Positions 2,358 to 53,994 of a DNA stretch of 64,000 nt are shown piece after piece. The first letter of the stretch is position 1, and the number at the start of each line of letters is the position of its first letter. The stretch covers positions 3,162,001 to 3,226,000 of the forward strand of contig NZ_CP150144.1 in NCBI RefSeq assembly GCF_037963145.1, in the 5' to 3' direction. Source of the DNA: Oceanobacillus sp. FSL K6-2867. Its GTDB lineage: Bacteria; Bacillota; Bacilli; Bacillales; Amphibacillaceae. Position numbers and translations under genes: made by a program. The notes beneath the pieces are model-generated. The model saw only the letters and a program-made list of their open reading frames with translations, was not told the origin of the DNA and searched no databases.

Positions 2358-2359
2358 AA

Positions 2360-3721
2360 ATGGAATTCACACCTTGGACAATTTTTATTGATTTTGGTTT
2401 TATATGTCTGTTGTTGGTAGTAGGAACTTTGTTAAGGGCAAAAATAAAGGCTATTCAATTTCTGTTTTTGCCAGCCAGTTTATTGGCGGGATTAATGGGC
2501 TTGATTCTCGGTCCTAATGGGTTTGGCATTATACCTTTTTCTGATAACTTAAGTACGTATACGAGTATATTAATTGCACTCATCTTTGGTTCACTACCTC
2601 TAAGTGCAGCGAAAATACCTATTAAAGGAATAGCTAATCGAATTGGCAGTATGTGGTCTTTTGCCCAGTCACTGACGATTTTTCAGTGGGGTGGAGGAAT
2701 GCTTTTTGCTCTTCTAGTGTTAAAGCTGTTTTGGACTGATATACCGAACGGGTTTGGATTAGTTCTTGCTGCTGGGTTTGTAGGAGGTCATGGAACTGCG
2801 GCTGCAATTGGTGATGCTTTTTCAGATACGTGGGCAGATGCCGGCACCTTAGCAATGACGTCTGCTACAATGGGGATTATTTGTGCTATTGTTGGTGGTC
2901 TGTTTTTAATTAAAAGAAGCACTATCAAAGGACAAACATCCTATATTAGTGATTTTAAAAGCTTGCCTGGAGAGCTGCGTTCAGGATTAGTGCCTAAGGG
3001 CAGCCGTGGTTCTATTGGAGATGGTACGGTATCTTCCATTTCAATTGATCCGCTTGTATATCATCTTGCCCTTATAGGAGTTATTGCAACAGCCGGCTAT
3101 TACTTAAGTGAATGGGGAACAACTCTTTTTCCGCAAATCTCCATTCCAGTATTCAGTACAGCGTTCATTGCTGGTTTAATAATAAATAGGCTTTTACGTA
3201 CTGTTAAAGCAAGTGATTATGTAGATAAACAGATAATTGACCGAATTAGTGGTGCTGCAACCGATTTATTAGTTGCTTTTGGGATAGCATCCATTAATTT
3301 AGCAGTTGTTGTAAATTATGCTTTGCCGTTAGCATTGCTGCTAGTATTCGGGCTATTGCTAGTAACCATATTCTTTTACTTTATTGCCCCACGACTTTTT
3401 AAAGAAAATTGGTTTGAAAAGGCTATATTCTCATGGGGCTGGGGAACCGGAACTGTAGCAATGGGTATCGCGTTATTGCGCATTGTTGATCCAGAGCTCA
3501 AAAGTAAAACACTTGATGACTATGCACTCGCCTATGTTGGTGTTGGTACAGTAGACATTTTAATTGTTAGTTTAGCTCCTGTACTCATAATGACAGGCCA
3601 ACACTGGCCATTTACACTTGTTGCTCTGGCTATTGGTACTCTGGTTCTAATTCTTTCAAAATGGATGGGGTGGTGGAGCTATTCTGCAGCTAAACAAGAG
3701 AGTAGAAGAAATATAAGTTAA
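2360..3721 (+). CDS. ESS-type (glutamate:Na+-like) symporter
   Basis: A 453-aa integral membrane protein with about 11-12 hydrophobic segments. It carries the GGHGTAAA signature at about residues 141-148 and a second re-entrant-like GWGTGTVAMG near residue 365, both typical of the glutamate:sodium symporter (ESS/GltS) superfamily. An excellent AAAGGAGGG ribosome site lies 5 bases before the ATG at 2360; an upstream in-frame start is less likely. It follows the decayed cyclodeaminase gene and precedes a SolA-type oxidase, so it may import an N-methylated or other amino acid for that oxidase. A close paralogue is at 51388, also beside a SolA-like sequence. The substrate is not known. Confidence 0.8.
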   Translation: MEFTPWTIFIDFGFICLLLVVGTLLRAKIKAIQFLFLPASLLAGLMGLILGPNGFGIIPFSDNLSTYTSILIALIFGSLPLSAAKIPIKGIANRIGSMWSFAQSLTIFQWGGGMLFALLVLKLFWTDIPNGFGLVLAAGFVGGHGTAAAIGDAFSDTWADAGTLAMTSATMGIICAIVGGLFLIKRSTIKGQTSYISDFKSLPGELRSGLVPKGSRGSIGDGTVSSISIDPLVYHLALIGVIATAGYYLSEWGTTLFPQISIPVFSTAFIAGLIINRLLRTVKASDYVDKQIIDRISGAATDLLVAFGIASINLAVVVNYALPLALLLVFGLLLVTIFFYFIAPRLFKENWFEKAIFSWGWGTGTVAMGIALLRIVDPELKSKTLDDYALAYVGVGTVDILIVSLAPVLIMTGQHWPFTLVALAIGTLVLILSKWMGWWSYSAAKQESRRNIS

Positions 3722-3796
3722 ATGCTTAAAGCAAGTAAACTAGATAAATATAATTTGAGTATGATCTGTTAACAGTCCTCCCTTACAATCAACTTA

Positions 3797-3820
3797 AAAG
3801 GGAGAAGGATCTCTCCCTTT
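3797..3820 (+). terminator. Stem-loop terminator after the symporter gene
   Basis: AAAGGGAGA pairs with TCTCCCTTT around a 6-base loop, then GTTCAG follows without a long T run. It is likely a terminator, or a partial one, between the symporter and oxidase genes. The rest of 3722-4042 shows no gene. Confidence 0.6.
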
Positions 3821-4042
3821 GTTCAGAAAGGAGTATGCATTCCAGGTTTTATACAACCATTTACTCTGTAAACATTTTATGGAGGCGCTATCATTATATG
3901 AGAATGGTGTAATGATTAAGGATAGTAATTAAATCTGCCGTTTTATGTGTAATGCAAAAACAACTAATCAAATAAGCTAAGCATAAGGAAAGAGTAAGAG
4001 TATGATGCATTATAAATTTTAAATAGAAAAGGACGTGTATCA

Positions 4043-5164
4043 ATGGATGCAGATGTAGCGGTAATTGGTGTTGGGACAATGGGAAGTGCAGCAGCTTGGC
4101 AGCTTGCTTCACGAGGTGCGAAAGTATTAGGATTTGAACGATATGCTCCAGGTCATGATAAAGGTGCGGGACATGGTGAAACCCGTATATTCCGAACTGC
4201 ATATGGCGAGGGAACCGAATATGTTCCATTTCTTCAGGAAGCTAAAAAGCTGTGGCGACAACTTGAAACCGAGACAGGAAATAATATATATGAAGAAACA
4301 GGGAGAATTATTATTTCCGAAAAAAAGGATTTAGAAACAGAAATCAATGGAGCAAACCTTCATAATTTACCTTATGAGTTATTAGATGCGCAAGAAGCTT
4401 CTGTACGTTTTCCACAACATAAATATGAAGAGAATGATATGGTTTATGTGGATCCGGAAGCAGGCTTTGTTAGACCCGAGCTTGCTATACAAGCTGCATC
4501 GCAACGTGCGATTGAACTGGGTGCCAGAATATATTGCGGTGTATCTGTTACAGCTATTGAGCCTGATGATGCTGGAGTAACAATTTATTGTGGAGAAGAA
4601 AGTTTCCGGGTCGGTCATGTTGTTGTGTCTGCAGGTGCTTGGGCATCTAAGCTACTTCCACAATTATCATTGCCGGTTTGGGTGGAAAGACAGATATTAG
4701 TGTGGTATCGTGCGAAAAATCCAGATGCCTTTACACTGGAAAACTTCCCAACCTTCGCACGCGAGCGAGAAGGGCACAGATGGTATGGTTTCCCATCACT
4801 AGATGGTGATCTCGTTAAAGTTGCTTTTCATCATGGCGGAGATACAGTTGACCCAGATACGATAGATCGAGCTACACATAAAGAAGATACAGAGCTATTA
4901 TCAAACTTTATTGAAAGATACATCCCTGACCTTGATCCTAATCCTGTAAAGGCAAAAGTATGTATGTACACGAATACACCAGATAACCATTTTATTATTG
5001 GTCCTGTTTCGGGGCTGCCTAATGTAACGATGCTTGGACCAATGGCGGGACATGGATTTAAATTTGCACCAATCATGGGCAAATTAGTTGCTGAAGTTGC
5101 CACAGGTGCGACACCAGCATTGAATATAGATATGTTTCGGCCTGATCGGTTAATACGTGTTTGA
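4043..5164 (+). CDS. SolA-type flavin oxidase (sarcosine / N-methyl amino acid oxidase)
   Basis: A 373-aa protein of the monomeric sarcosine oxidase / N-methyltryptophan oxidase family, near the usual length (about 370-390). The N-terminal FAD motif is VIGVGTMGSAAA at residues 6-17, and HGETRIFR at about 48-55 is the family's second signature. Cys307 in KVCMYTNTP corresponds to the cysteine that binds FAD covalently in characterised members. The reaction would be oxidative demethylation of an N-methyl amino acid, giving the amino acid, formaldehyde and H2O2. The ATG at 4043 follows AAAAGGACG. A second family member is at 43260, and a short fragment closely related to this gene is at 51039. 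Preferred substrate is inferred only. Confidence 0.85.
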   Translation: MDADVAVIGVGTMGSAAAWQLASRGAKVLGFERYAPGHDKGAGHGETRIFRTAYGEGTEYVPFLQEAKKLWRQLETETGNNIYEETGRIIISEKKDLETEINGANLHNLPYELLDAQEASVRFPQHKYEENDMVYVDPEAGFVRPELAIQAASQRAIELGARIYCGVSVTAIEPDDAGVTIYCGEESFRVGHVVVSAGAWASKLLPQLSLPVWVERQILVWYRAKNPDAFTLENFPTFAREREGHRWYGFPSLDGDLVKVAFHHGGDTVDPDTIDRATHKEDTELLSNFIERYIPDLDPNPVKAKVCMYTNTPDNHFIIGPVSGLPNVTMLGPMAGHGFKFAPIMGKLVAEVATGATPALNIDMFRPDRLIRV

Positions 5165-39632: not shown

Positions 39633-40694
39633 ATGAAGAAATTTCAGATCGCTTCCATTCCAGGAGATGGGATTGGTAAAGAAGTTGTTCCTGCTGCTAT
39701 CAATGTTTTGGAAACGGTGTCAGAATTGCATGGTGGGCTTTCCTTTGAATTTACAGATTTCCCATATAGCTGTGAATACTATTTAGAGCATGGAGTCATG
39801 ATGCCTGAAGATGGGCTGGAGAGATTAAAAGATTTTGACTCTATCTTTTTGGGGGCTGTAGGAAATATTAAACTTGTTCCGGATCATGTCTCATTATGGG
39901 GTCTTTTGATTAAGCTTCGACGTGAATTTGAACAAGTAATTAATATGAGGCCAGCCAAAATTATGCGTGGCATCCAATCTCCACTGGTTAACCCAAAGGA
40001 CTTTGATTTAATGGTTGTTCGGGAAAATAGTGAAGGAGAATATAGTGAGGTTGGCGGAAGGATCTTTCGCGGAGAGGATGAGGTTTCTATTCAGAATAAT
40101 ATTTTCTCCCGCAAAGGTACAGAACGTGCAATGCGCTATGCATTTGAGTTGGCATCTAAACGAAATAAACATGTAACGAGTGCCACAAAGTCAAACGGAA
40201 TTGTTCATACAATGCCATTTTGGGATGAAGTTTTCCAGGATGTGGCCAAAGATTATCCAGATATTCAAACAGACTCCCAGCATATCGATGCCCTGGCCGC
40301 TTTTTTTGTAACACATCCAGAAAAATTTGATGTAATTGTCGCCAGTAATTTATTCGGTGATATTCTAACCGATATTGGTGCTGCCATTATGGGAAGTGTT
40401 GGAATTGCACCAGCTGCAAATATTAATGTAAATGGAAAATACCCATCCATGTTTGAACCTGTACATGGCTCAGCACCAGATATTATTGGAAAGGGCGTTG
40501 CTAATCCGATTGGCCAAATCTGGACAGCTAAAATGATGCTTGACCATATGGGGGAAGAAGAAATTGGGACGGTTGTTTTAGATGTGGTCGAGAGTGTTAC
40601 GAATGACGGAATTACGACCCCTGATATAGGTGGGAAACATACTACAAGGGAAGTTACAGAGGAAATTATTAGTCGTTTGAAGGCTAAAGCATAA
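39633..40694 (+). CDS. Tartrate / D-malate dehydrogenase (decarboxylating, isopropylmalate dehydrogenase family)
   Basis: A 353-aa beta-decarboxylating dehydrogenase. It has IPGDGIGKEVVPAA at about 8-21, LRREFEQVINMRPAK at about 94-108, VRENSEGEY (about 130-138), the catalytic lysine in ATKSNGI (about 187), the Mg2+ ligands in SNLFGDILTDIGAA (about 238-251) and FEPVHGSAPDI. Its closest named type is the YcsA/TtuC group acting on tartrate or D-malate; leucine-pathway LeuB differs in the VRE region and in context. It oxidises the hydroxy-acid with NAD+, often releasing CO2. It is monocistronic, between a GntR regulator and a perfect terminator. AAGGAGA precedes the ATG. Confidence 0.85.
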   Translation: MKKFQIASIPGDGIGKEVVPAAINVLETVSELHGGLSFEFTDFPYSCEYYLEHGVMMPEDGLERLKDFDSIFLGAVGNIKLVPDHVSLWGLLIKLRREFEQVINMRPAKIMRGIQSPLVNPKDFDLMVVRENSEGEYSEVGGRIFRGEDEVSIQNNIFSRKGTERAMRYAFELASKRNKHVTSATKSNGIVHTMPFWDEVFQDVAKDYPDIQTDSQHIDALAAFFVTHPEKFDVIVASNLFGDILTDIGAAIMGSVGIAPAANINVNGKYPSMFEPVHGSAPDIIGKGVANPIGQIWTAKMMLDHMGEEEIGTVVLDVVESVTNDGITTPDIGGKHTTREVTEEIISRLKAKA

Positions 40695-40710: not shown

Positions 40711-40758
40711 AAATAGGGATCTATCAGGTATCTGATAGATCCCTATTTTTAATTTTTG
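40711..40758 (+). terminator. Strong Rho-independent terminator
   Basis: AAATAGGGATCTATCAG and CTGATAGATCCCTATTT form a perfect 17-bp stem with a GTAT loop, followed by TTAATTTTT. Confidence 0.95.
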
Positions 40759-41062: not shown

Positions 41063-41971
41063 TTGAATAATACAATTAACTCTTCAAAAAAACTAAAGGA
41101 AACGCTTACAAATTTTATAATGAATGAAAACATTACTCCTAATAACCGTCGAATTGCAGAATATATTTTATTGAATTATAAGTCGGTTGCCTTTATGACG
41201 GCATCAGAATTAGCAGAAAAAATAGGAGTCAGTCAGCCTACTATTACTAGATTTGTTGCAATCCATTTAAAGATTGACAGGTTTAGTAAATTCATTAAAG
41301 AAATTCAAAACATTATACGATTGGAAGTTACTACCCTTGATCGCCATCAAATGAAAAAGGAAAATCAGGATTCTGATTTTTATTACTTTATTGATCAGGA
41401 AATTGACAGTTTAAAAAGTATTGGTGATTACATCTCGGAAGAAAAGCTAGATTATATTGCTAAGAAAATAGCTGGTAAGAAAAAAATTTTAATCCTTGGG
41501 TTTCGTTCAGCAAAGCCATTAGCCGATTATTTTTACTTTTTTTTAAGAAAAATACATCCAAATGTTCAAGTTTGTTTCCGTGCTGATAGTGAAGTGCTTG
41601 ATACACTCCATTCTATAAATGTTCAAGAATCACTCATTTTGCTGTTTGCTTTTCCTAGGTATCCAAATGAAATGATTAATGTAATCAAGTATTTAAAAGA
41701 AAAAAAGTACCCATGTATTACTATTTCAGACAGTTATAAATTGCAAGAAATCGGAGTCTGCAATGTTGATTTAGTCACTCCAATTACCCTAAATAACTTA
41801 TTTGATTCTTATACATCGACATTCAGTGTTTTAAGTATTCTTTTAGATAAAATCGGTAGGGTTGATTTTGAGCAGTCTCAAACCATGCTTAACAATTTAG
41901 AAGATCTATACCGAAAGAATCAGGTTTTTTTCACTGAACAAAATGCAGCCCAGAAAGGAAATAATAAATGA
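41063..41971 (+). CDS. RpiR-family transcriptional regulator
   Basis: About 302 aa. The RpiR helix-turn-helix lies at about 12-90 (MTASELAEKIGVSQPTITRF) and the SIS domain at about 125-270 (ILILGFRSAKPLADYF; ESLILLFAFPRYPNEM). The TTG at 41063 has AAAGGAG 8 bases upstream; the in-frame ATG at 41033 has no ribosome site. Its stop overlaps the start of the M20 hydrolase gene by 4 bases (ATGA), so the regulator and the first pathway gene are translationally coupled. That strongly suggests it controls the hydrolase, oxidase and hydantoinase genes behind it. The ligand is unknown; a hydantoin or carbamoyl amino acid is a guess. Confidence 0.87.
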   Translation: MNNTINSSKKLKETLTNFIMNENITPNNRRIAEYILLNYKSVAFMTASELAEKIGVSQPTITRFVAIHLKIDRFSKFIKEIQNIIRLEVTTLDRHQMKKENQDSDFYYFIDQEIDSLKSIGDYISEEKLDYIAKKIAGKKKILILGFRSAKPLADYFYFFLRKIHPNVQVCFRADSEVLDTLHSINVQESLILLFAFPRYPNEMINVIKYLKEKKYPCITISDSYKLQEIGVCNVDLVTPITLNNLFDSYTSTFSVLSILLDKIGRVDFEQSQTMLNNLEDLYRKNQVFFTEQNAAQKGNNK

Positions 41972-43242
41972 TAAAAATAAATATGGATCGACTGGTAAGT
42001 AATTTACAAACCCTTGGAAAAATAGGGCTAAATGAATCAGGTGGGTTGGACCGAACGGCATTTACTGATGCAGAGCTACAAGCCAGAAATTGGCTGTTCG
42101 AAAAATTAAATGCAATAAATTTGACGGTTAAAGTAGACGAAATAGCAAATATATGGGCTAAAAGGGAAGGTTCGAACCCAAAGTATCCATCCATTGTATT
42201 TGGTTCTCATATTGATTCGGTGCCAAATGGAGGGAAATATGATGGAGCCTTAGGTGTTTTAATGGCATTAGAAGTAATGCAAACACTAGAAGAGAACGGA
42301 ATCCAAACAACTTATCCATTGGAATTGGTGTCCTTTAGTGCAGAAGAAGCAAATCCATTTGGGGTTTCTACTTTAGGAAGCAGAGCAGCAGCTGGAAAAT
42401 TGAAGCAGCAGGACATTTTTAATGCGATAAATGACGAAGGTATGACGTTAACTCAGGCACTACAAAAAGCAGGAGGTGACCCGGTTCATTTTGAAAAGGC
42501 AAAAAGGAATCCAAATGAACTGGCCGCCTATCTAGAAGTCCATATTGAACAAGGCAAAAGACTCTTAAACAGAGAGATTCCAGTTGGAATTGTGACCGGG
42601 ATAACGGGAATATACCGAGAGCAAGTGACCGTATCTGGTGAAGCTAATCATGCAGGAACAACATTGATGAAAGACAGGACAGATGCTCTCATGCAGGCTT
42701 CTGAAATGATGCTCGCCTTTGAGACAGCGGTTAAGGATTATCCAGATGAAGAATTGGTAGGGACGATTGGAAAAATTGAGAATTACCCAAATGCCGCCAA
42801 TGTAATACCAGGCCAGGTTGAACTACATATTGAGATTAGAGGAGGGTCAAGGGATGCTATCCAAGACGTCATAAACAAATGGGAAAAAAAGCTAGAAGAA
42901 ATAAGGCAACGTAGAAACGGAAAGGTACACCGCCATGTCACAAAGGATCAATTACCAGTGACAATGGATCCAATTCTGATGGACACTTCTGAACAAGCAG
43001 CAACAAAGTTTGGCTATGCAACAATGAGGCTTGGCAGTATGGCAGGTCATGATGCGGCACATATGGCAACCCTTACGAAAGCGGGGATGTTATTTGTCCC
43101 AAGTATAGACGGAAAAAGTCATTGTCCTGAAGAAGAAAGTAGAAAGTCAGATATTGAAATCGTTTGTAACACACTACTTCATTCCATTTTATTGTTAGAT
43201 CAACAGTTAAGTAAACAATTTCAACTTATTTATTCCAAATAA
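41968..43242 (+). CDS. M20-family N-carbamoyl-amino-acid hydrolase / allantoate amidohydrolase type
   Basis: A 424-aa dinuclear metallo-amidohydrolase of the AmaB/HyuC/AllC group. FGSHIDSVPNGGKYDGALG (about 72-90) holds the first metal ligands, SAEEANPFG at about 128-136 the catalytic and bridging acids, YLEVHIEQG at about 189-197 the next ligand, and GHDAAHMA near 355 the last. The lid/dimer domain fills about 210-330. It cleaves an N-carbamoyl group to CO2, NH3 and the free amino acid. With a sarcosine-oxidase-type enzyme and HyuAB behind it, N-carbamoylsarcosine is the best-fitting substrate. Allantoate is the main alternative, but no other allantoin genes are here. Confidence 0.85.
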   Translation: MIKINMDRLVSNLQTLGKIGLNESGGLDRTAFTDAELQARNWLFEKLNAINLTVKVDEIANIWAKREGSNPKYPSIVFGSHIDSVPNGGKYDGALGVLMALEVMQTLEENGIQTTYPLELVSFSAEEANPFGVSTLGSRAAAGKLKQQDIFNAINDEGMTLTQALQKAGGDPVHFEKAKRNPNELAAYLEVHIEQGKRLLNREIPVGIVTGITGIYREQVTVSGEANHAGTTLMKDRTDALMQASEMMLAFETAVKDYPDEELVGTIGKIENYPNAANVIPGQVELHIEIRGGSRDAIQDVINKWEKKLEEIRQRRNGKVHRHVTKDQLPVTMDPILMDTSEQAATKFGYATMRLGSMAGHDAAHMATLTKAGMLFVPSIDGKSHCPEEESRKSDIEIVCNTLLHSILLLDQQLSKQFQLIYSK

Positions 43243-43259
43243 AGAAAGAGGGAAAAAAG

Positions 43260-44405
43260 GTGAATTACCATTTTGATACCATTGTTATTGGCGGAGGAAC
43301 CATGGGAACCGCAGCAGCTTATTATTTGTCAAAAAAAGGACAGCGGGTATTAGTACTGGAGCAGTTTTCCATTCCTAATGATAAGGCAAGTCATCATGGG
43401 GATACACGCATGTTTCGATTAGCAAATGGAGATGGAGAAAAATATGTGCCATTGGGGAAAGCAGCACTTCGTCTGTGGGAAGAGCTAGAAGCAGATACAG
43501 GAAAAACACTATTTCAAAAATCGGGTGCGCTATCGATAGGTTATTCGGGGTCAGATTTTATAAAAAAAGCGATAGAAAGCTCTGTAACACATCAATTAGA
43601 ATATGAAAAATTGACAGCAGATGAAATCAAGGATCGCTGGCCAGGGATCACTATTCCAGATGATTATTATGGCTGTTTAGATCCGAATGCTGGATTTCTA
43701 TTTAGTGAGGAATGCATTAGAACATATAAAGAGGAAGCAGAGAAATTAGGTGCTGTTTTAAAAGAATACGAGCCGGCAACAGAGATAATCCGAATGCGAA
43801 ATGAAGTAAAAGTGATAACAGGTAAAGAGCAGTATTCGGCTAATCATTTAATTATTACAGCTGGAGCGTGGACACACAAACTAGTAAAAAATATCAATCT
43901 GCCAATAACGATCATACGAAAGACCATCGGCTGGTTTGAACCAATGAAAAAGGGAATGTACGATCATCATTTTCCTTGTTTTGTCTTTAAAACAGAATCG
44001 GACGGGAATTATTATGGATTTCCAAATTTTAACGGTTCTGGTGTGAAATTAGGAAGAATGGATGAAGGGCATTTGTCAGATCCTGACAAGCTGAACCGTG
44101 AATTTGGCTCTTTTGAAAACGATGAAGGAGATTTAAGGAGATTTTTGGAAAAATATATGTCAAATGCAAGCGGTACTATGCTGAATGGAAAGGTTTGTAT
44201 GTTTTCTATGACACCGAATGAGGATTTTATTGTGGACAGGGATCCAGAATTTGACAATATAATTATTGCTGGAGGATTTTCCGGTCGCGGATTTAAATTT
44301 GCCAGTGTTATAGGAAGTATTCTTTCCGATTTAGTTGTCGAGGGCGAAACTACTCATGATATCTCTTCTTTTCAGATTAAGCGATTTATGGAACAGCAGG
44401 CTTAG
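43260..44405 (+). CDS. Sarcosine oxidase-type flavin oxidase (SolA family)
   Basis: A 381-aa monomeric sarcosine oxidase / N-methyltryptophan oxidase family protein. It has VIGGGTMGTAAAYYLSKKG at about 8-26, HHGDTRMFR at about 46-54 and Cys313 in KVCMFSMTPNEDF, the covalent FAD cysteine position. The C-terminal GGFSGRGFKFASVIG is typical. It would oxidise sarcosine, or another N-methyl amino acid, to glycine, formaldehyde and H2O2. The GTG start at 43260 follows AGAGGGAAAAAAG. It lies 17 bases after the M20 hydrolase gene and 136 bases before hyuA. It is clearly distinct from the relative at 4043. Confidence 0.87.
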   Translation: MNYHFDTIVIGGGTMGTAAAYYLSKKGQRVLVLEQFSIPNDKASHHGDTRMFRLANGDGEKYVPLGKAALRLWEELEADTGKTLFQKSGALSIGYSGSDFIKKAIESSVTHQLEYEKLTADEIKDRWPGITIPDDYYGCLDPNAGFLFSEECIRTYKEEAEKLGAVLKEYEPATEIIRMRNEVKVITGKEQYSANHLIITAGAWTHKLVKNINLPITIIRKTIGWFEPMKKGMYDHHFPCFVFKTESDGNYYGFPNFNGSGVKLGRMDEGHLSDPDKLNREFGSFENDEGDLRRFLEKYMSNASGTMLNGKVCMFSMTPNEDFIVDRDPEFDNIIIAGGFSGRGFKFASVIGSILSDLVVEGETTHDISSFQIKRFMEQQA

Positions 44406-44438
44406 TGAATAGTTTTTAGGATTTTATAAAACCAGTGA

Positions 44439-44453
44439 TTGTAAACGTTTTTA
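44439..44453 (+). promoter_or_regulatory. Candidate cre (CcpA) site ahead of hyuA
   Basis: TTGTAAACGTTTTTA matches the cre consensus WTGNAANCGNWNNCW at 14 of 15 positions. It lies about 90 bases ahead of the hyuA start, where CcpA could repress. Confidence 0.4.
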
Positions 44454-44541
44454 TGAATCGATTGCTGATAGTCTAGCTTAAAAAATGCATTAGCAGCAAA
44501 AAACAATAAACATTGAGACTAAACGAAAAGGGGTAAGGTAA

Positions 44542-46635
44542 ATGCAATATCGAATTGGAATAGATACTGGTGGAACATTTACAGATGTATCCTTGGTGGA
44601 GGAAAGTACAGGAAAATCCTTTATTACGAAGGTACCTTCTACTCCGAGTAATCCTTCATTAGCCGTTATTAATGGAGTAAAGCAAATCGTACAAGAAACT
44701 GGTATTGACTATCAGGATATATCCTTTTTTATTCATGGAACTACAGTAGGGACAAATGCCTTACTTGAACAAAAAGGAGAAAAAACAGCTTTATTAACAA
44801 CAAAGGGCTTCAAAGATATTCTTCAAATTGGGAGGCAGACGCGACCAAAGCTCTATGATTTCAAGGCACGCAGATCAGAACCTCTAGTACCTCGTAATTT
44901 ACGGTTAGAATTGGATGAGCGGATTGATACACAAGGTAATATTTTAAAAGGGATTGATAGAGGTGAGGTTATTGAATTATCAAAAACACTAAAAAAATAT
45001 AACATAAAATCACTTGCTGTATGTTTTATAAATTCATATGCAAACCCATCCCATGAAACGGAAGTTAAAAAAATACTTAATGAGCTGATACCGGAAACCT
45101 TTATTACTCTATCTTGTGAGGTTCTCCCAGAATTTAAGGAATATGAACGTACAAGTACAGTAGTAGGAAATGCGTATGTCTTGCCAAAAATGAAATATTA
45201 CCTTGAGCACTTGAACGATAATTTAAAGGAAATGCAAATATCTAGCAATCTTTATATCATGCAATCAAATGGTGGAGTTATTGGTGCTGAAACAGCGATT
45301 ACTATGCCAATCCGTACAATTTTATCTGGACCAGCGGGAGGGGTATTAGCTGGGACTATTGTGGCTAAGAATACATCCTATAAGAATATTATTACGATTG
45401 ATATGGGGGGAACTAGTTTAGATACTGCCCTCATTGAAAATGGAGAGGCTCAATTCACAACCATGAGTGAAATTGATGGAAGGCCAGTAAAAGTACCGAT
45501 GGTTGAAATGCATACAATTGGATCTGGTGGTGGTAGTATCGCTTGGATAGACGCTGGCGGCGCATTACGAGTTGGACCACATAGTGCAGGGGCAGATCCA
45601 GGACCTGTTTGCTATGGCAATGGTGGGGAAGAACCGACTGTTAGTGATGCTAATGTGATACTTGGCCGGTTAAATCCGAATTCCATTCTGGGCGGGAAAA
45701 TGAAGATGGATGTGGAATCGGCAAGGAAAGTCATAAAAGAAAAAATTGCTGATCCACTAGGATTAACGATAGAGGAGGCTGCAGAAGGAATATTAAAGGT
45801 TATTAATACTAATATGATGCGCGGAATTAGGGTCATTTCAATTGAAAAGGGACATGATACGCGTGATTTTTCATTAATGGCATTTGGTGGAGCGGGACCA
45901 CTTCATGCTGTAGATATTGCTAACGAACTTGGTTCCAAAGAGGTAATAATTCCACCAAATCCTGGTATTACTTGTGCGGAGGGAATGCTTAAGGCCGATG
46001 TAAGACATGATTATGTACAAACATATACCTCGACTCTTTCAGTCTTGGATTTTAATCAAACAAATAATATTTTAGCAGCGTTATCACAAGAGGCGATTGA
46101 CGAGCTTAGTAATGAAGGCTTTGAAAATCAGGATATTGAATTACAAGCTAGTCTTGATCTCCGTTATGTGCGTCAAGCGTATGAAATTAACATCCCACTA
46201 GTGGATGGCAGTACAGTAACAGAAGCATCTCTAAGTGAAGCAGTTAAGACATTTCATGAAATGCATGAAAAAATCTATGGATTTAATCGCCAATCTGAAG
46301 AACTGGAATTAGTTAATATCCGTTTAATTGGTATAGGGAAAATTAAAGAATTACAAAATACAAAACAAGAAATTGCTTTAAAAAATAATATTGAACCTGT
46401 GAGCGAACGTAACGTATATTTCGATGGTTCATTTATTCAAACTCCAATCTATCAACGGACTGATTTGCACAGCGAAGTGACAATTGCAGGACCAGCTATT
46501 ATTGAACAACTTGACTCCACAATTGTTATTTATCCAAAGCAAAAGGCGGTCACAGATAAAAGCGGAAATTTAATCATCAATCTTACGAATACGGATGCAA
46601 AGGAGGAAGCGGAATATGAGTACTCAGCAAATTGA
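44542..46635 (+). CDS. hyuA: Hydantoinase / N-methylhydantoinase subunit A (ATP-dependent family)
   Basis: A 697-aa HyuA protein of the usual length. The N-terminal phosphate-binding motif is GIDTGGTFTDVSLV at residues 5-18, then FIHGTTVGTNALLEQKG at about 68-84, the ASKHA-fold core with TILSGPAGGVLAGT (about 256-269) and IDMGGTSLDTALIENG (about 285-300), and MAFGGAGPLHA near 450. With the B subunit this family splits 5-oxoproline, N-methylhydantoin or related rings, or carboxylates ketones, using ATP. The neighbours (carbamoylase and sarcosine-oxidase type) favour N-methylhydantoin. AAAAGGGGTAAGGT precedes the ATG. The 3' end overlaps hyuB by 20 bases. Confidence 0.87.
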   Translation: MQYRIGIDTGGTFTDVSLVEESTGKSFITKVPSTPSNPSLAVINGVKQIVQETGIDYQDISFFIHGTTVGTNALLEQKGEKTALLTTKGFKDILQIGRQTRPKLYDFKARRSEPLVPRNLRLELDERIDTQGNILKGIDRGEVIELSKTLKKYNIKSLAVCFINSYANPSHETEVKKILNELIPETFITLSCEVLPEFKEYERTSTVVGNAYVLPKMKYYLEHLNDNLKEMQISSNLYIMQSNGGVIGAETAITMPIRTILSGPAGGVLAGTIVAKNTSYKNIITIDMGGTSLDTALIENGEAQFTTMSEIDGRPVKVPMVEMHTIGSGGGSIAWIDAGGALRVGPHSAGADPGPVCYGNGGEEPTVSDANVILGRLNPNSILGGKMKMDVESARKVIKEKIADPLGLTIEEAAEGILKVINTNMMRGIRVISIEKGHDTRDFSLMAFGGAGPLHAVDIANELGSKEVIIPPNPGITCAEGMLKADVRHDYVQTYTSTLSVLDFNQTNNILAALSQEAIDELSNEGFENQDIELQASLDLRYVRQAYEINIPLVDGSTVTEASLSEAVKTFHEMHEKIYGFNRQSEELELVNIRLIGIGKIKELQNTKQEIALKNNIEPVSERNVYFDGSFIQTPIYQRTDLHSEVTIAGPAIIEQLDSTIVIYPKQKAVTDKSGNLIINLTNTDAKEEAEYEYSAN

Positions 46636-48349
46636 TGGAATTACACTTGAGATAATGAAAAATGCTTTTCATACAATTGCGGAGGAAATGGGTGTAACAC
46701 TTATACGAACAGCTCTTTCTACAAACATTAAGGATCGAATGGATGGTTCAACAGCCATTTATACAAAAGATGGGGAATTAGTAGCACAGGCAGAGCATGT
46801 TCCCCTCCATCTTGGTTTAATGCCCTCTGTAGTAAAGGAAGTATTAAAGATATTTCCTCCGAATCAATTAAAACCTGGGGATGCCATTTTAATTAATGAT
46901 CCGTATATAAGCGGGTCCCATCTTCCTGACATCTTTATGATAAGTCCAATTTTTTACCACGGAGAGCTTGTAGCACTAGCAGCGAATGTTGCCCATCATG
47001 TCGATGTTGGTGGAATGGCTCCGGGGAGTATGTCGTCAAAGGCGACTGAAATCTATCAAGAGGGTTTACGACTTCCAGGGATACGGATTCGCAGGGAGGG
47101 TGTTCTTGATGATGATATGATCAGACTGCTTGAAACGAACGTCCGTACAGGGAAGGAAGTACTTGGTGATTTATATGCACAGCTTGCAGCAAATAAATTA
47201 GCTGAAACAAGGATAGTTGAGTTATTTGAAAAGTACTCCGTTGAATTTGTTTTCAATTGTATGGAAGAAATTATGAATTATTCTGACCGCAGGATGCGAG
47301 CAGCAATCCAAAATGTTCCAAACGGCAGCTATGAATTCAATGATTTTCTAGAAGGTGATGGAATTACAGACGATTTAATTGAAATAAAGGTCAAGGTTGT
47401 TATTAAAGATGATGAAGTGGAAGTCGACTTTACAGGTACATCAAAGCAAGGGAAGGGACCAATTAATTCGACACAAGGTGTCGTAAATGCATGTGCGTAT
47501 TATACGCTTAAATCTGTTTTAGACTCTGAGGTACCGCCGAATGCAGGTGCCTATCGAAGCATAAAAGTTATTGCGCCTAAAGGCACGATTGTTAACCCGA
47601 ATTTTCCAGCGTCTGTTTCCAACGCCAACCTGAATACCGCTCAACGAATTGCAGATACGATTTTCGGTGCAATTTCACAAATTCTGCCTGAAGAGTCGAT
47701 GGCAGCATGTTCAGGAACAATGAATGGATTTGCGATTGGTGGATTTGATGAAGAAAACAGCGAGTATTTTTCATATGTAGAAACATATGGTGGAGGTCAA
47801 GGTGGATTAATAGACTTGGATGGTATGGATGGAGTTCATACAAATATGACAAATACACTGAATACTCCTGTGGAAGTAATGGAACAAACGTTTCCGTTTC
47901 TTGTAAAAAAATATGGATTGGTTGATGGAAGTGGAGGACCGGGAAAGCATCGTGGTGGATTAGGTTTAATGCGTGAGATAGATGTGTTAGTCGATGATTC
48001 CACGCTTACCCTAATGTCTGATCGTCAAAAAATTTCACCATGGGGATTATTTGGTGGAGAAGGTGCCAAAACCTCATCATGTACACTTGTCACTCCAGAG
48101 GGGCAACGGAAAAATTTGTCCTCAAAAGTAACAATTACTGTTCCAAAAGGAAGTTCGATCATCCTTTCAACTGCTGGAGGTGGAGGCTACGGTTTGCCGA
48201 GTGAACGGGATACAAAAGCAGTCCTGCAGGATGTAGTTCATGGAAATATCAGTGTAGAACAAGCACGTGATCAATACGGTGTTGTGATTAATGAAGAGAC
48301 ATTAATGGTTGATGAGTTGGAAACGGAAAATTTACGTAAAAGAATGTAA
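46616..48349 (+). CDS. hyuB: Hydantoinase / N-methylhydantoinase subunit B
   Basis: About 577 aa, the normal HyuB length. ITLEIMKNAF at about 8-17, TALSTNIKDRMDGSTAIY (about 31-48), INDPYISGSHLPDIFM (about 97-112), VAHHVDVGGMAPGSM (about 128-142) and SGGPGKHRGGLG in the C-terminal part are all family signatures; the His and Asp residues of the metal site lie in the second and third. It is the catalytic metal-bearing partner of HyuA. The ATG at 46616 has AAAGGAGGAAGCGGAAT upstream inside the end of hyuA, so the two are coupled. It is probably the last gene of the RpiR-M20-oxidase-HyuAB operon. Confidence 0.87.
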   Translation: MSTQQIDGITLEIMKNAFHTIAEEMGVTLIRTALSTNIKDRMDGSTAIYTKDGELVAQAEHVPLHLGLMPSVVKEVLKIFPPNQLKPGDAILINDPYISGSHLPDIFMISPIFYHGELVALAANVAHHVDVGGMAPGSMSSKATEIYQEGLRLPGIRIRREGVLDDDMIRLLETNVRTGKEVLGDLYAQLAANKLAETRIVELFEKYSVEFVFNCMEEIMNYSDRRMRAAIQNVPNGSYEFNDFLEGDGITDDLIEIKVKVVIKDDEVEVDFTGTSKQGKGPINSTQGVVNACAYYTLKSVLDSEVPPNAGAYRSIKVIAPKGTIVNPNFPASVSNANLNTAQRIADTIFGAISQILPEESMAACSGTMNGFAIGGFDEENSEYFSYVETYGGGQGGLIDLDGMDGVHTNMTNTLNTPVEVMEQTFPFLVKKYGLVDGSGGPGKHRGGLGLMREIDVLVDDSTLTLMSDRQKISPWGLFGGEGAKTSSCTLVTPEGQRKNLSSKVTITVPKGSSIILSTAGGGGYGLPSERDTKAVLQDVVHGNISVEQARDQYGVVINEETLMVDELETENLRKRM

Positions 48350-48458: not shown

Positions 48459-49244
48459 ATGAGGTTAGAAGGAGAAGTCGCAATCGTAACAGGTGGCAGT
48501 CAAGGTATCGGGAGAGGAATTACGGAATTATTCGGACGTGAAGGAGCAAAAGTTGTTTTTGCAGATATAAATGAAGAAGTTGGACAACAAACAGTAAGAG
48601 ATTTTGATCAGCAAGGGATTCAAGCGTTTTTTAAGAAAACAGACGTTAGTAACGAAGAGAGTGTTATCAATCTGGTAGATTATGTAGTTGAGGAATTTGG
48701 TAAACTGGACATTTTGGTTAATAATGCTGGAATCACCTACCGTAAAGCAGTACATGAAACTACCTTAGATGAATGGAAGAAGTTAATAGATATTAACTTA
48801 ACCGGTGCTTTTCTATGTAGTAAATATGCAATTCCAGAAATGCAAAAACGAAATTATGGATCCATTATAAATATGGCATCAACACATGCAAATACAACTA
48901 TAACTAGGCTTGCAGCATATGCAACTGCCAAAGGCGGCCTGACTGCGTTAACACGTCAAATGGCACTGGATTACGGCAAAAATCAAATTAGAGTGAATGC
49001 AGTGGCACCAGGGTCTGTAGAATCTCCAATGTTACAAAAAACTTATGAGGACTTAGGGGATCCTGAAGAAGCGTTTAAACACACTTTAGAATTTAATCCT
49101 ATGGGACGTCTGGGAAAAGTTGAGGATATTGCGAAAGTATGTTTATTCCTGGCCTCAAAAGACTCTGAATATGTAAGTGGTCAAACGATTTTTGTGGATG
49201 GTGGACAAATCAATAAATTTGCAAGACCAATAGCTTTTGATTGA
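48459..49244 (+). CDS. Short-chain dehydrogenase/reductase (SDR)
   Basis: A 261-aa classical SDR. The NAD(P) motif is TGGSQGIG at about 11-18, an acidic residue in FADINEE suggests NAD(H) preference, NNAG at about 88-91, the catalytic Ser in NMASTHAN (about 141) and Tyr-Lys in AAYATAKGG (about 155-159), then PGSVESPM. It reduces or oxidises a secondary alcohol/ketone. The substrate is unknown. It lies 109 bases after hyuB and before the SSS symporter set, so it may be part of the same catabolic programme; a TTAGGAGGA ribosome site precedes the ATG. Confidence 0.85.
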   Translation: MRLEGEVAIVTGGSQGIGRGITELFGREGAKVVFADINEEVGQQTVRDFDQQGIQAFFKKTDVSNEESVINLVDYVVEEFGKLDILVNNAGITYRKAVHETTLDEWKKLIDINLTGAFLCSKYAIPEMQKRNYGSIINMASTHANTTITRLAAYATAKGGLTALTRQMALDYGKNQIRVNAVAPGSVESPMLQKTYEDLGDPEEAFKHTLEFNPMGRLGKVEDIAKVCLFLASKDSEYVSGQTIFVDGGQINKFARPIAFD

Positions 49245-49371: not shown

Positions 49372-49515
49372 GTGGAAAAACAAATAAATGAAAAACAATA
49401 TGATGGATCCGAAATGGATGAGGTGAAATCACCTCCGTTTAAGATGATTGGTGCGTTTTTATTATTAACTGTAATAGGTGTTCTATATGCATATAGTTGG
49501 AGTCTGCTACTTTAA
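49372..49515 (+). CDS. 47-aa single-pass membrane peptide, likely SSS transporter partner
   Basis: A short gene starting at GTG 49372 with AAAGGGAGG 7 bases upstream. The product is 47 aa: an acidic N-terminal half (EKQINEKQYDGSEMDEVKSP) and one membrane helix (MIGAFLLLTVIGVLYAYSWS) near the C-terminus. It ends 24 bases before the SSS symporter gene. Several SSS members are preceded by small hydrophobic companion proteins, so a stabilising or regulatory role for the transporter is reasonable but unproven. It belongs to no family I recognise. Confidence 0.65.
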   Translation: MEKQINEKQYDGSEMDEVKSPPFKMIGAFLLLTVIGVLYAYSWSLLL

Positions 49516-49539: not shown

Positions 49540-50988
49540 ATGGCAATCACTTTATTCGTCATCTACTTTGGAATAATGATTATTATCGGTCCACTTGCAG
49601 CAAAAATGATGAAAAAGAAGGATGCAGGGGATTTTATTTTAGCAGGTAGGTCCGTACCTCTTTTCCTTGTAGTTGGAGGTATTATCGCAACATTAATTAA
49701 TGCTACTACATTGCTTGGATATGGTGGTTCAGGTTATTCACTAGGATTAACTGCTTACTTTTCAAGTATGGGATATATGGTAGCTCTAGCATGGATGGGA
49801 TACTGGTTTATTCCACGGCTGCGAAGAGCAAACTTAACAACGATCCCAGAGTTATTTAATCGTTTATTTGGAGTACCACATAAACTAGCAGCAGTTATTC
49901 TAGTAATGTGCCGTGACATTGGGGTAACTGCAGGTTCAGCTCTAGGAATGGCAATCGTTTTTGCATCTGTATTTGATATATCACTCGACATGGGGCTTAT
50001 AATTACACTTGGAGTCACCATAATTTTCATGGTAATTGGTGGAATGTGGGCTGTAATGATAACCGATACTATACAAACTGTTATCATTTTAGTTGGAACA
50101 ACAATTATGATTCCATTGGGGATAGCTTACATTGGTGGTTGGTCGGAATTTATCAATAACATACCAGCGACTCACATCGATATTTTTAGTGCAGGTGGAT
50201 CCCAGACTTTTGCTTGGTTTATTGCGGGGACACTTACCTTTATAGGATATCAAACGTTAATTCAAAGAGGATTATCTGCTGATAGTGATGAAACGGCAAA
50301 GAAATCATTTGTTTATGGTGGTTTTATTGCGCTTGCTTGGTACATGGTTCCATTTGTAATAGGTATTATAGCTTTAGTTATTTTCCCGGAAATAAATGCA
50401 TCAGATGCATTTATTAGCCTAACCCAGCTTTTTGGATCAGTTGGAAGTATTATATTTGCAATAATAATTGTTGCATCAAGTATTTCTACACTAAGCTCAA
50501 CAGTTTTAACTACTGCTTCAAATATCTCAATAGATATTTATAAACAATGGATAAAACCACAAGCTTCTGAAAGACAGGTTGTTTTGGTCACACGAATTTC
50601 AGTTGTAGCAGTAGCAATAATTGGTACATTAATAGGGCGATCATTACCTTATATTCTTGAATTACTCCTTACTGGTGGAAGAATTATGGCTGCATCTCTG
50701 GCGCCAGTATTCATTGCTCTTGTGTTCTGGAAAGCAGCGCGTAAGGCATATTATACAACACTTGCAGCAATGTTTTTAGGTGCATCTGGAACGATTTTTG
50801 GGGTTGTTTTAGGTAACCGAGCGGCAAGTAATTCAGAAGGAGATGTAGTATTTGTGTGGGGGCTGGACCCTGTTTTAATTGGTCTGCCAATAACCCTATC
50901 TGTCCTTATATTAGGAACGTTGCTTGAAAACAAAATTAAACGAAATAAATTAGCGAAGGACATTAGTTCAGATTCCAATATTTCATAA
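49540..50988 (+). CDS. Sodium:solute symporter (SSS family)
   Basis: A 482-aa SSS symporter with about 13 helices. It has FILAGRSVPLFLVVGGIIAT near residues 31-50, LLGYGGSGYSLG (about 57-68), VIGGMWAVMITDTIQ (about 166-180) and IIIVASSISTLSSTVLTTAS in the Na2-site region (about 308-327). GTGGGGTGT precedes the ATG. With the 47-aa peptide it forms a pair downstream of the hydantoinase and SDR genes, so it may import a hydantoin, creatinine-like compound or sarcosine. That substrate link is by neighbourhood only. It differs clearly from the SSS protein at 26844. Confidence 0.87.
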   Translation: MAITLFVIYFGIMIIIGPLAAKMMKKKDAGDFILAGRSVPLFLVVGGIIATLINATTLLGYGGSGYSLGLTAYFSSMGYMVALAWMGYWFIPRLRRANLTTIPELFNRLFGVPHKLAAVILVMCRDIGVTAGSALGMAIVFASVFDISLDMGLIITLGVTIIFMVIGGMWAVMITDTIQTVIILVGTTIMIPLGIAYIGGWSEFINNIPATHIDIFSAGGSQTFAWFIAGTLTFIGYQTLIQRGLSADSDETAKKSFVYGGFIALAWYMVPFVIGIIALVIFPEINASDAFISLTQLFGSVGSIIFAIIIVASSISTLSSTVLTTASNISIDIYKQWIKPQASERQVVLVTRISVVAVAIIGTLIGRSLPYILELLLTGGRIMAASLAPVFIALVFWKAARKAYYTTLAAMFLGASGTIFGVVLGNRAASNSEGDVVFVWGLDPVLIGLPITLSVLILGTLLENKIKRNKLAKDISSDSNIS

Positions 50989-51387: not shown

Positions 51388-52749
51388 ATGACTTTGTGGG
51401 ATGTATTAACAGACGTTGGATTTATTTCTTTATTGCTGCTAATTGGTGCATTTTTAAGGGCAAAGATAAAATTTATACAAATGCTGTTTTTGCCTGCAAG
51501 TTTAATAGCGGGTGTTTTAGGTTTAATATTAGGTCCAAGTGGTTTATCGATTATACCTTTTTCAGATAATTTGCCAGTTTACTCAGCTGTTTTAATAGCA
51601 ATAATATGGGCATCCTTGCCTTTTACTTCAAAACTGGAATCCTTTACAAGAATAATAAAAAATGCGAAAAACATGTGGGCTTTTTCTCAAGTACTTACCA
51701 TATTGCAGTGGGCAGCAGGAATGCTGTTTGCCTTGTTAATTTTAAATTCCTTTTGGAATGGATTACCAAATGGTTTTGGTTTAATGTTTGCGGCAGGTTT
51801 TTTTGGAGGTCATGGAACAGCTGCAGCTCTTGCTGATGGTTTTGGAACGAATTGGCCAGAAGCACATTCTCTTGGAATGACTTCAGCAACAATAGGTATC
51901 ATAACAGCCATTGTTGGAGGTATAATAATAACGAAATTTGAAACACAGCGGGGTAAAACATCGTTTATAACTAGCTTTAAAGAACTTCCAAATGAATTAA
52001 GAACAGGCTTAATAGAAAAAAATGACAGAAAGCCATTTGGATATAATACAGTTTCCGCAATGTCAATTGATCCATTAATTTATCATAGTGGATTACTTAT
52101 CCTTATAGCTATGATAGGTTACTATTTAAGTGAATTAGCTAATGCAATATTTCCACAGATAACCGTTCCAGTATTTTCTTTAGCCTTTATTCTAGGCTAT
52201 ATTATCGTACTTATTTTAAAAGCTTTAAAGGCAGATTCTTATTTTGATAAACAGATTTTTGAACGTACAAGTGGTGCTTCAACTGATCTGTTAGTTGCCT
52301 TTGGAGTCGCATCTATAAACATCTCTGTAGTATCAAGTTATGCAGTTCCGTTATCTCTTTTATTACTATTTGGTATTGCGTTCTGTTTATTTCTGTATTT
52401 CTATTTGGCACCTAAGTTCTTCCATCAATACACTGTTGAAAAATCACTCTTCTGTTGGGGATGGGGTACAGGAACTGTTGCAATGGGAATGGCATTGTTG
52501 CGAATAGTCGATCCTGAACTCAAAAGCAAAGCTTTAGATGAATATGGATTGGCCTATATCCCAATAGGATTTATGGATATTATTACGATTGCATTACTGC
52601 CTACATTAATAATATCTGGTCATCATTGGTTTTTCACATTCACCGCTCTTGCTATAGGTATATTGATATTAGTCGTAACTAAATTATTAGGCTGGTGGGG
52701 AAAAGCACCAACAAACATACAGCCAACAGAACGAAAAATAGGTAGCTAA
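51388..52749 (+). CDS. ESS-type symporter, paralogue of the one at 2360
   Basis: A 453-aa membrane protein, exactly the length of its paralogue at 2360 and similar throughout: LLRAKIK-type LRAKIKFIQMLFLPASL at about 23-39, GGHGTAAALADGFGTNWPEA near 141, SIDPLIYHSGL near 227, GASTDLLVAFGVASIN near 295 and CWGWGTGTVAMGMALLRIV near 363. It should share a Na+-coupled mechanism and perhaps substrate. AAGGGGTTGATTAG precedes the ATG. It lies after an SSS symporter and the SolA remnant, whereas the 2360 copy lies before an intact SolA-type gene. It is distinct from the shorter GltS at 19838. Confidence 0.82.
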   Translation: MTLWDVLTDVGFISLLLLIGAFLRAKIKFIQMLFLPASLIAGVLGLILGPSGLSIIPFSDNLPVYSAVLIAIIWASLPFTSKLESFTRIIKNAKNMWAFSQVLTILQWAAGMLFALLILNSFWNGLPNGFGLMFAAGFFGGHGTAAALADGFGTNWPEAHSLGMTSATIGIITAIVGGIIITKFETQRGKTSFITSFKELPNELRTGLIEKNDRKPFGYNTVSAMSIDPLIYHSGLLILIAMIGYYLSELANAIFPQITVPVFSLAFILGYIIVLILKALKADSYFDKQIFERTSGASTDLLVAFGVASINISVVSSYAVPLSLLLLFGIAFCLFLYFYLAPKFFHQYTVEKSLFCWGWGTGTVAMGMALLRIVDPELKSKALDEYGLAYIPIGFMDIITIALLPTLIISGHHWFFTFTALAIGILILVVTKLLGWWGKAPTNIQPTERKIGS

Positions 52750-53022: not shown

Positions 53023-53994
53023 ATGTATGAGAAAATATTAAAGGCAGCCGAACGACTAGAGGGTATTGTGCATAAAACACCGGTTATGACTTCAACGCTT
53101 CTAAATGAAATAACTGGCAACCAGATTTATTTAAAATGTGAAAACTTTCAGCGTGTGGGAGCGTTTAAATTTCGTGGTGCTTATAATGCGATCAGTTCAC
53201 TCTCACCGGAAATAAGAAAAAAGGGTATAGTAGTATTTTCTTCAGGCAACCATGCTATGGCTACAGCCTTGACCTGTAAAATTCTTAATGTACCAGCTAC
53301 TGTTATTATGCCTGAGGATGCCCCAATGGTAAAGGTTGCAGCAACGAAAGGCTATGGAGCTACTGTGATATCCTATAACCGTAACAGTGAATCTCGGGAA
53401 AAAATAGCGGAGGAACTTGTTGAACAATACGGCTATACGCTTATTCCACCTTTTGATGCTGAAGAAATACTTGCTGGCCAGGGGACAGTTGCCAAGGAAC
53501 TGATTGAAGAAGCAGGGGAACTTGATTACCTTTTTGTTCCATGTGGGGGTGGAGGACTATTGAGTGGCTGTGCAGTTAGCACAAAGCATTTGCTTCCTAA
53601 GTGCAAGGTGATAGGAGTAGAACCGTGCCTATCAGACGATGCCACTATATCATTTAAAACTGGTGTATTACATAGGGCTGAGTCTGCAAATTCAATCGCG
53701 GACGGTCTGAATACCCCTTCATTAGGAAAAATCACTTTTCCGCTGATTCGTGAATATGCTGATGATTTTGTAACTGTTTCTGAAAATGAGATTCTGACTA
53801 CTATGTACTATTTATGGACAAGACTAAAAATTGTAGCTGAACCTTCAGGAGTGGTTGGTCTAGCAGCAGCGTTTCATCAAAAACTATCACTGGAAAATAA
53901 GAAAATTGGCGTAGTAATAAGTGGTGGCAATGTTGATGTCAAAGAAGTTGGGAATCTGTTTGATAGTATTCCCGATCTGCATTCGAAAACATAA
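53023..53994 (+). CDS. PLP-dependent threonine/serine dehydratase family protein
   Basis: A 323-aa fold type II PLP enzyme without a C-terminal ACT regulatory domain, so it is the catabolic or racemase-like short form. The PLP lysine is Lys49 in GAFKFRGAYNA, with SSGNHAMATA (about 76-85) and the phosphate-binding loop CGGGGLLSG (about 171-179). Members deaminate L-threonine, L-serine or 3-hydroxyaspartate, or racemise serine. GAGGAGAAATAATGA precedes the ATG at 53023; a nearby ATG at 53019 is out of frame and stops at once. It stands alone. If glycine is made by the sarcosine route, serine dehydration would be a possible later step, but this is speculation. Confidence 0.82.
   Translation: MYEKILKAAERLEGIVHKTPVMTSTLLNEITGNQIYLKCENFQRVGAFKFRGAYNAISSLSPEIRKKGIVVFSSGNHAMATALTCKILNVPATVIMPEDAPMVKVAATKGYGATVISYNRNSESREKIAEELVEQYGYTLIPPFDAEEILAGQGTVAKELIEEAGELDYLFVPCGGGGLLSGCAVSTKHLLPKCKVIGVEPCLSDDATISFKTGVLHRAESANSIADGLNTPSLGKITFPLIREYADDFVTVSENEILTTMYYLWTRLKIVAEPSGVVGLAAAFHQKLSLENKKIGVVISGGNVDVKEVGNLFDSIPDLHSKT

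Follow-up and report, generated by a model that had tools for sequence, protein, structure and literature searches.

A gene cluster of Oceanobacillus pairing an altered sarcosine-oxidase-like flavoenzyme with an M20 amidohydrolase, and its possible role in the catabolism of an N-methylated glutamate-type compound

Results

Gene content of the cluster

Five intact genes lie closely spaced on the forward strand, between positions 41063 and 48349, in a 64,000-nt stretch of the genome of Oceanobacillus sp. FSL K6-2867 (contig NZ_CP150144.1, positions 3,162,001 to 3,226,000; hereafter the window), and the present work deals with the compound that their products may degrade. The first gene (41063..41971) starts with TTG after AGGAG and encodes an RpiR-family regulator with HTH_6 (PF01418) and SIS (PF01380) domains. 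It overlaps by 4 nt (ATGA) the gene of an M20 amidohydrolase (Pfam Peptidase_M20; 41968..43242), which is followed after 17 nt by the gene of a monomeric sarcosine-oxidase-like flavoenzyme of the Pfam DAO family (SOX; 43260..44405). A gap of 136 nt, the loosest joint among the five genes, leads to HyuA (44542..46635), the ATP-binding subunit of a hydantoinase/oxoprolinase-family lactamase, and the gene of the metal-site subunit HyuB (46616..48349) overlaps that of HyuA by 20 nt. Pfam and NCBIfam scores of the five proteins are far above chance level. A terminator-like hairpin lies upstream of RpiR (40711..40748, forward strand), and the hairpin scan listed no such site in the gaps between the cluster genes; across the region it gave 7 sites versus a mean of 8.1 in shuffled sequence, that is, no excess.

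A preliminary description of this DNA had listed the same families on one strand and tightly packed, with the ATGA overlap and the cysteine for covalent FAD attachment in SOX, all of which is borne out by the gene calls, the family scores and the presence of the residue equivalent to Cys315 of monomeric sarcosine oxidase (MSOX). Its interpretation, an N-methylhydantoin-to-glycine route in which the M20 enzyme takes the N-carbamoylsarcosine step, holds for the gene families and is not supported for the substrates, because of the M20 clade and the SOX residues described below. The host genome, a single contig of 4.40 Mb, contains four SOX-like genes (E <= 1e-60), five M20 genes of this broad family (E <= 1e-30) and two HyuA genes.

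The M20 enzyme belongs to a clade from histidine operons

The best match of the window M20 in the PDB is an L-carbamoylase, and NCBIfam places it in the 'allantoate amidohydrolase' subfamily; with the NCBIfam model of ErtE (N-carbamyl-L-glutamate amidohydrolase) it scores 424 bits, below the cut-off of 520. When exact peptide patterns of this protein were scanned over GTDB genomes, 50 loci (L033-L082) were recovered, in which further genes were matched by tblastn (E <= 1e-25). HutU was matched in 41 of them (4 of these matches being merely 37-38% identical), a HutF-like gene in 42 and SOX in 6, three of the latter together with Mgs-type genes; two loci had none of these, and a HyuA match was found in 0 of the 50. 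In the sample locus L037, HutH, HutU and HutI score above the NCBIfam cut-offs. Operons of this kind, from Paenibacillus, Cohnella and others, combine the M20 gene with HutHUI and the HutF-like gene, and their M20 proteins are annotated, for example, as allantoate amidohydrolase or N-carbamoyl-L-amino-acid hydrolase.

The window M20 is about 60% identical to the M20 proteins of histidine operons and 33-37% identical to the other four of its own genome. In a tree computed without L044, L055 and L057, which gave no single open reading frame (ORF), and without five loci of extreme length, it falls within a 42-row clade with a support of 100/100, and linkage to SOX is dispersed across the tree (4 changes). 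We also listed the residues shared by 90% or more of 31 histidine-type rows that are either uncommon among six comparison M20s or replaced in the window protein. Most of them are retained in the window M20, among them E218, M358, H365, K383, C386 and E390, which are fixed in the 31 rows and absent from the six comparison proteins.

Since the clade is found mostly in histidine operons, next to HutHUI and a HutF-like gene, an N-formylglutamate-type role is suggested for the window M20. Placed between HutI and formimidoylglutamate deiminase, the histidine-operon M20 would most simply be an N-formylglutamate amidohydrolase, as judged from operon position only; a literature search on this function returned nothing bearing on it in titles or in the opening lines of abstracts. 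For the window enzyme, a glutamate-type N-acyl compound is the likely substrate. The window cluster shares the M20 clade with the histidine utilisation operons and differs from them in having no Hut genes. Histidine catabolism in the host was rejected, as no HutU was found in the genome by a search that does find the Bacillus subtilis control, and the closest HutF relative is just 26% identical.

The SOX active site departs from that of sarcosine oxidase

Monomeric sarcosine oxidase is the best PDB match of the window SOX, which is 44% identical to MSOX (1zov) and shares with it the fold family, Arg49, Arg52, Phe100, Tyr254, Lys265, the flavin-attachment residue Cys315 and Lys348 (MSOX numbering). 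The two differ by Tyr55Asn, Met245Val, His269Met, Tyr317Phe and His345Arg, and Arg345 was found in the window SOX alone. According to the accessible part of PMC12582975, the sarcosine site is made up of Arg52, Tyr55, Phe100, Met245, Tyr254, His269 and Lys348, so that three of its seven residues are altered. The Arg52/Tyr55/Lys348 set is incomplete, with Asn at position 55, and the His269 and Met245 pocket is replaced by Met269 and Val245. Another SOX of the host genome (2841446-2842588) retains all seven residues as well as Tyr317.

The nearest SOX relatives of known context, 56-57% identical, are found in loci L035, L045 and L047, in methylamine-type operons with the order IclR-M20-GATase-GXGXG-Glu_synthase-type III glutamine synthetase-SOX, next to which L045 and L047 have a gene for an ammonium transporter and L035 one for a PF11927 oxidative N-demethylase. 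As far as the available portions of PMC3160333 and PMC5023230 go, this gene set is that of the route by which N-methylglutamate is synthesised from methylamine. The window cluster resembles the N-methylglutamate pathway (GMAS/Mgs/Mgd) through these relatives, and it differs in having neither an Mgs nor a type III glutamine synthetase gene, and a monomeric oxidase where the same sources, as excerpted, give the four-subunit Mgd. These comparisons suggest that the window SOX probably uses an N-methylglutamate-like substrate larger than sarcosine. Position 315 is Ser, not Cys, in the SOX proteins of L035, L045 and L047, and the cofactor is therefore probably not covalently attached there.

Two further arrangements were found among the M20 relatives. 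In L034, the order is RpiR-ABC-SOX-M20, and its regulator is a 50-51% identical relative of the window RpiR; since this locus joins SOX and M20 with a HutF-like gene, methylhistidine was considered as a substrate. In L072 and L074, M20 and SOX are directly followed by a 43% identical relative of the window Glt_symporter-family transporter (51388..52749).

Residues 269 and 317 of SOX tend to change together with the presence of a deacylase partner

Across 62 aligned SOX rows, all seven proteins that have an M20 of the clade as partner (those of the window, L034, L035, L045, L047, L072 and L074) carry a residue other than His at position 269 together with Phe317. Among the other 55 rows, 53 are His269/Tyr317, and the remaining two are L014 (Ser/Tyr) and L171 (Phe/Phe). 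In a search of 5.8 billion proteins, 94 SOX homologues were obtained at E <= 1e-110, and in these the two positions are fully coupled: 61 are Met/Phe, 31 His/Tyr, one Asn/Phe and one Arg/Phe. On a tree of 60 SOX rows built with columns 269 and 317 removed, six state changes are needed, at least four of them on well-supported branches.

Linkage of these 94 homologues to M20 was scored by contigs of equal size, an indirect indication that the two genes share a contig, using the best 120 of 474 M20s (118 sizes entered, one of which stands for three rows). On contigs of 7-300 kb, a range picked after inspection of the data, a clade M20 was linked to 13 of 23 non-His/Phe SOX versus 0 of 16 His/Tyr SOX (Fisher p 2.8e-4). 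On shorter contigs there was no linkage (0/35 and 0/11, respectively), and on longer ones it amounted to 3/5 and 1/4, the single His/Tyr case being P0075 (895,751 nt). Over contigs of every size, linkage was observed for 16/63 non-His/Phe versus 1/31 His/Tyr SOX (p 0.009); shifted offsets gave a mean of 0.18 coincidences, as against the 17 found here.

M20-superfamily neighbours were also sought uniformly around 80 SOX rows with seven M20 queries. This set holds duplicate loci (L074/L124, L031/L093, L028/L092, L171/L172, L014/L175), the window's own copies were left out, and the misaligned row L027 was excluded. No same-strand match was obtained for the 64 His/Tyr rows, of which 7 had flanks of at least about 7 kb and the rest 1.5 kb. 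Stretches of 18.7 and 19.9 kb holding the methylamine operons L121 and L122, whose SOX are His/Tyr, were free of M20. Four of the 64 rows (3 loci) gave a weak match at a distance of 159-190 nt, on the other strand.

Other altered SOX have deacylase partners of different kinds. On the Staphylococcus equorum plasmid NZ_CP013982.1 (L177 6001-8322), a Tyr269/Phe317 SOX is followed 3 nt downstream by an ArgE/DapE-type deacylase, and in L172 and L174 (Phe269/Phe317) an M20D amidohydrolase lies 2.7 kb off on the same strand, in L174 with an AbgT-family transporter gene in between. Three deacylase types, namely the histidine-operon, ArgE/DapE and M20D types, have thus been seen paired with altered SOX. 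The weak opposite-strand matches near His/Tyr rows correspond to an M20D-like gene in L031/L093 (G000:C1:3319949-3321064), L017 and L030. The operons L121 and L122 unite relatives of the PF11927-type oxidative N-demethylase, Mgs genes, glutamine synthetase III, a monomeric SOX and an ammonium transporter.

HyuAB and its relatives

Both subunits carry the Hyu domains expected of the family (PF05378, PF01968, PF19278 and PF02538), and their closest solved relatives are the N-methylhydantoinase 7hk5 and the caprolactamase 6yra. The metal ligands of CapB, given as D41, H99, D101 and H124 in the accessible part of PMC8453981, seem to be kept in the HyuB alignment when read by eye. The same source, as far as available, describes the HyuAB-type lactamase CapAB of caprolactam degradation, to which the window proteins are alike.

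An order-level HyuA search at E <= 1e-200, which was too strict, returned the window alone, and a class-level search at 1e-160 found HyuA in 54 of 398 genomes, the best other match being 44% identical; overall, HyuA relatives reach 81% identity. Among 13 other HyuA loci (L127-L139), 6 have an M20 gene near HyuAB, of a different subfamily and 32-40% identical to the window M20. One other contig, of 15,952 nt, seems to hold both a Met/Phe SOX and HyuA. Shifting the offsets 600 times gave on average 0.04 coincidences when contigs of 7 kb or more were counted, and 0.18 overall. In the degradation of N-methylpyrrolidone, NmpABC provides a HyuAB-type lactamase followed by an amine oxidase; the NmpABC and CapAB systems are not known to include an M20 enzyme, and their products differ from those proposed for the window cluster.

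Discussion

Proposed pathway and its alternatives

With a probability of about 0.45, and arguing from sequence comparisons, we read the cluster as serving the catabolism of an N-methylated glutamate-type compound, with SOX acting before M20; a glutamate-type N-methyl amino acid is the substrate we favour. In this scheme, where every substrate and product is predicted, HyuAB, if it takes part, would open an N-methyl ring with ATP to give the methylated amino acid, candidate rings being N-methyl-5-oxoproline and 1-methylhydantoin-5-propionate. SOX would oxidise N-methylglutamate, or a closely similar dicarboxylic compound, at its N-methyl group, and the imine or carbinolamine, oxidised once more or trapped in the altered site, would yield N-formylglutamate. 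M20, as an N-acylglutamate amidohydrolase, would cleave the latter to glutamate and formate, so that formaldehyde would not escape, and RpiR would regulate the cluster. NikD performs a four-electron oxidation. In the family, FsqB offers a precedent for an imine that is diverted and not hydrolysed, according to the part of PMC6222107 available. Altered oxidase and deacylase co-occur also where N-methylglutamate is evidently the substrate, and for this reason an N-formyl product would be the simplest chemistry. We put forward the order SOX then M20 through N-formylglutamate, which accounts best for the comparisons, tentatively, at somewhat less than even odds. The same degree of caution applies to the broader proposal that the SOX branch with non-His269/Phe317 oxidises N-methyl to N-formyl amino acids in a four-electron reaction and has evolved in partnership with formate-releasing deacylases of the M20 superfamily. 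A literature search found no paper covering both N-methylglutamate and N-formylglutamate. Within this reading, it is the possible N-methyl to N-formyl oxidation that deserves testing.

Several observations weigh against this reading, besides the proxy and the choice of size range already mentioned. Most of the other 55 SOX rows had 1.5 kb flanks only, which an M20 spaced as in L035, L045 and L047 (4.4-4.6 kb) would escape, and 1zov came with no context; only seven His/Tyr rows (L092, L093, L121, L122, L123, L125 and L126) were scanned with longer flanks. An independent-pairs test yielded three pairs (same direction mean 1.8, opposite 0, median p 0.5), too few contrasts. Ten of the 23 non-His/Phe SOX on contigs of 7-300 kb had no linked M20 among the best 120 of 474, L173 (Phe/Phe) showed no M20 in the 20 kb examined, and neither L176 (Asn/Ile) nor L175 (Ser/Tyr) had an M20-superfamily neighbour in the 80-row scan. 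Since most Met/Phe homologues retain Tyr55 and many His/Tyr rows differ at position 245, it is the changes at 269 and 317 that carry the weight. The HutF-like protein of L037 scores under the curated cut-offs. The window M20 sits on a long branch (0.66) and deviates at 12 listed positions, six of them fully fixed in the 31 histidine-type rows (I59, Y116, A128, L136, V279 and K326); together with the Arg345 unique to the window SOX, this means that the substrate may differ from that of the relatives. The host genome has no close MgsC (the best matches are 31% and 38% identical; MgsA, MgsB and GMAS were not searched), for which reason methylamine use through the Mgs route was rejected, and the host would not make N-methylglutamate in this way. 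Among the best 120 HyuA homologues, one shares a contig size with any of the 94 SOX, and the listed M20s give no such case; since HyuAB relatives so rarely share a contig with such SOX, the link to HyuAB is weak. It is accordingly somewhat doubtful that HyuAB belongs to the same pathway as SOX and M20; a role as a feeder from an N-methyl lactam or hydantoin is plausible but unproven.

This last point invites the explanation that two modules are neighbours by chance, RpiR-M20-SOX acting on an N-methyl or N-acyl-N-methyl amino acid, with the amidase first and then the oxidase releasing formaldehyde, and HyuAB-SDR-SSF acting on an unrelated lactam or hydantoin. The 136-nt gap between SOX and HyuA would fit such a division, as would the rarity with which HyuA relatives of up to 81% identity share a contig size with SOX or M20; however, no terminator-like site is listed in that gap, the 15,952-nt contig seems to carry both a Met/Phe SOX and HyuA, and an amidase-first order leaves the M20 of the methylamine operons unexplained. 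We regard this as unlikely, although it is the strongest of the alternatives. Slightly less probable is a HyuABC-like route, in which HyuAB would open 1-methylhydantoin-5-propionate, M20 would decarbamoylate N-carbamoyl-N-methylglutamate and SOX would turn N-methylglutamate into glutamate with release of formaldehyde. HyuC belongs to the M20 enzymes. HyuAB with a separate hydrolase of N-carbamyl amino acids (HyuC) is known from Pseudomonas NS671, according to the available part of PMC8453981, and an M20 carbamoylase beside HyuAB would therefore not be new in itself. The adjacency of HyuAB, M20 and SOX, the frequency of M20 near HyuAB (6/13 HyuA loci) and the good, though sub-threshold, ErtE score of the window M20 speak for this route. 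Unlike HyuABC, the window has the order M20-SOX-HyuA-HyuB with an oxidase added, and its M20 is not of the subfamily usual near HyuAB, the HyuC of NS671 itself not having been compared. Moreover, M20 pairs with SOX in 6 of 50 loci and with HyuA in none, the M20 of the methylamine operons and the residue coupling would be left unexplained, and the route would still need a source of the methylhydantoin.

The route of the preliminary description, from N-methylhydantoin through N-carbamoylsarcosine and sarcosine to glycine, appears quite improbable. The best PDB match of both HyuA and HyuB is named N-methylhydantoinase and SOX does belong to the sarcosine oxidase family, but it has lost Tyr55, Met245 and His269 of the sarcosine site, M20 is of the histidine-operon clade and of a subfamily other than that found near other HyuAB, and the host has a SOX with a canonical site elsewhere in its genome. 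The residue changes in SOX and the M20 clade led us to set aside a creatinine-like reading in general. The cluster holds no isochorismatase-fold N-carbamoylsarcosine amidohydrolase, its amidohydrolase being M20; no search for one was made elsewhere in the genome.

If the reading in favour of an N-methylated glutamate-type compound were true, a set of genes of Bacillaceae and Paenibacillaceae named N-methyl-L-tryptophan oxidase or sarcosine oxidase would act on a different substrate and possibly give a different product, and a group of M20s named allantoate amidohydrolase or carbamoylase would be N-formylglutamate amidohydrolases serving histidine and methylamine catabolism. The two-residue signature would tell in advance which oxidases depend on a partner deacylase. 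Amino acids and, via N-methylglutamate, methylamine would be demethylated without formaldehyde, and an aerobic methylamine route that sets no formaldehyde free would be interesting with regard to methylotrophy.

Flanking genes

The cluster may continue on the same strand through an SDR oxidoreductase (48459..49244), possibly co-transcribed since the gap before it has no listed terminator-like site, a 47-codon ORF with one hydrophobic stretch (49372..49515; GTG start after GGGAGG) and, directly after it, an SSF sodium:solute symporter (49540..50988; PF00474), a candidate importer. The Glt_symporter-family transporter (51388..52749; PF03616) lies further along this strand. A second transporter of this family, 55% identical to it, forms a pair with a SOX-like gene at 2324-5164 of the window; that SOX is 31% identical to the one of the cluster and retains His269/Tyr317. 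A tartrate dehydrogenase (39633-40694) and a threo-3-hydroxy-L-aspartate ammonia-lyase (53023-53994), both exceeding curated cut-offs, flank the cluster.

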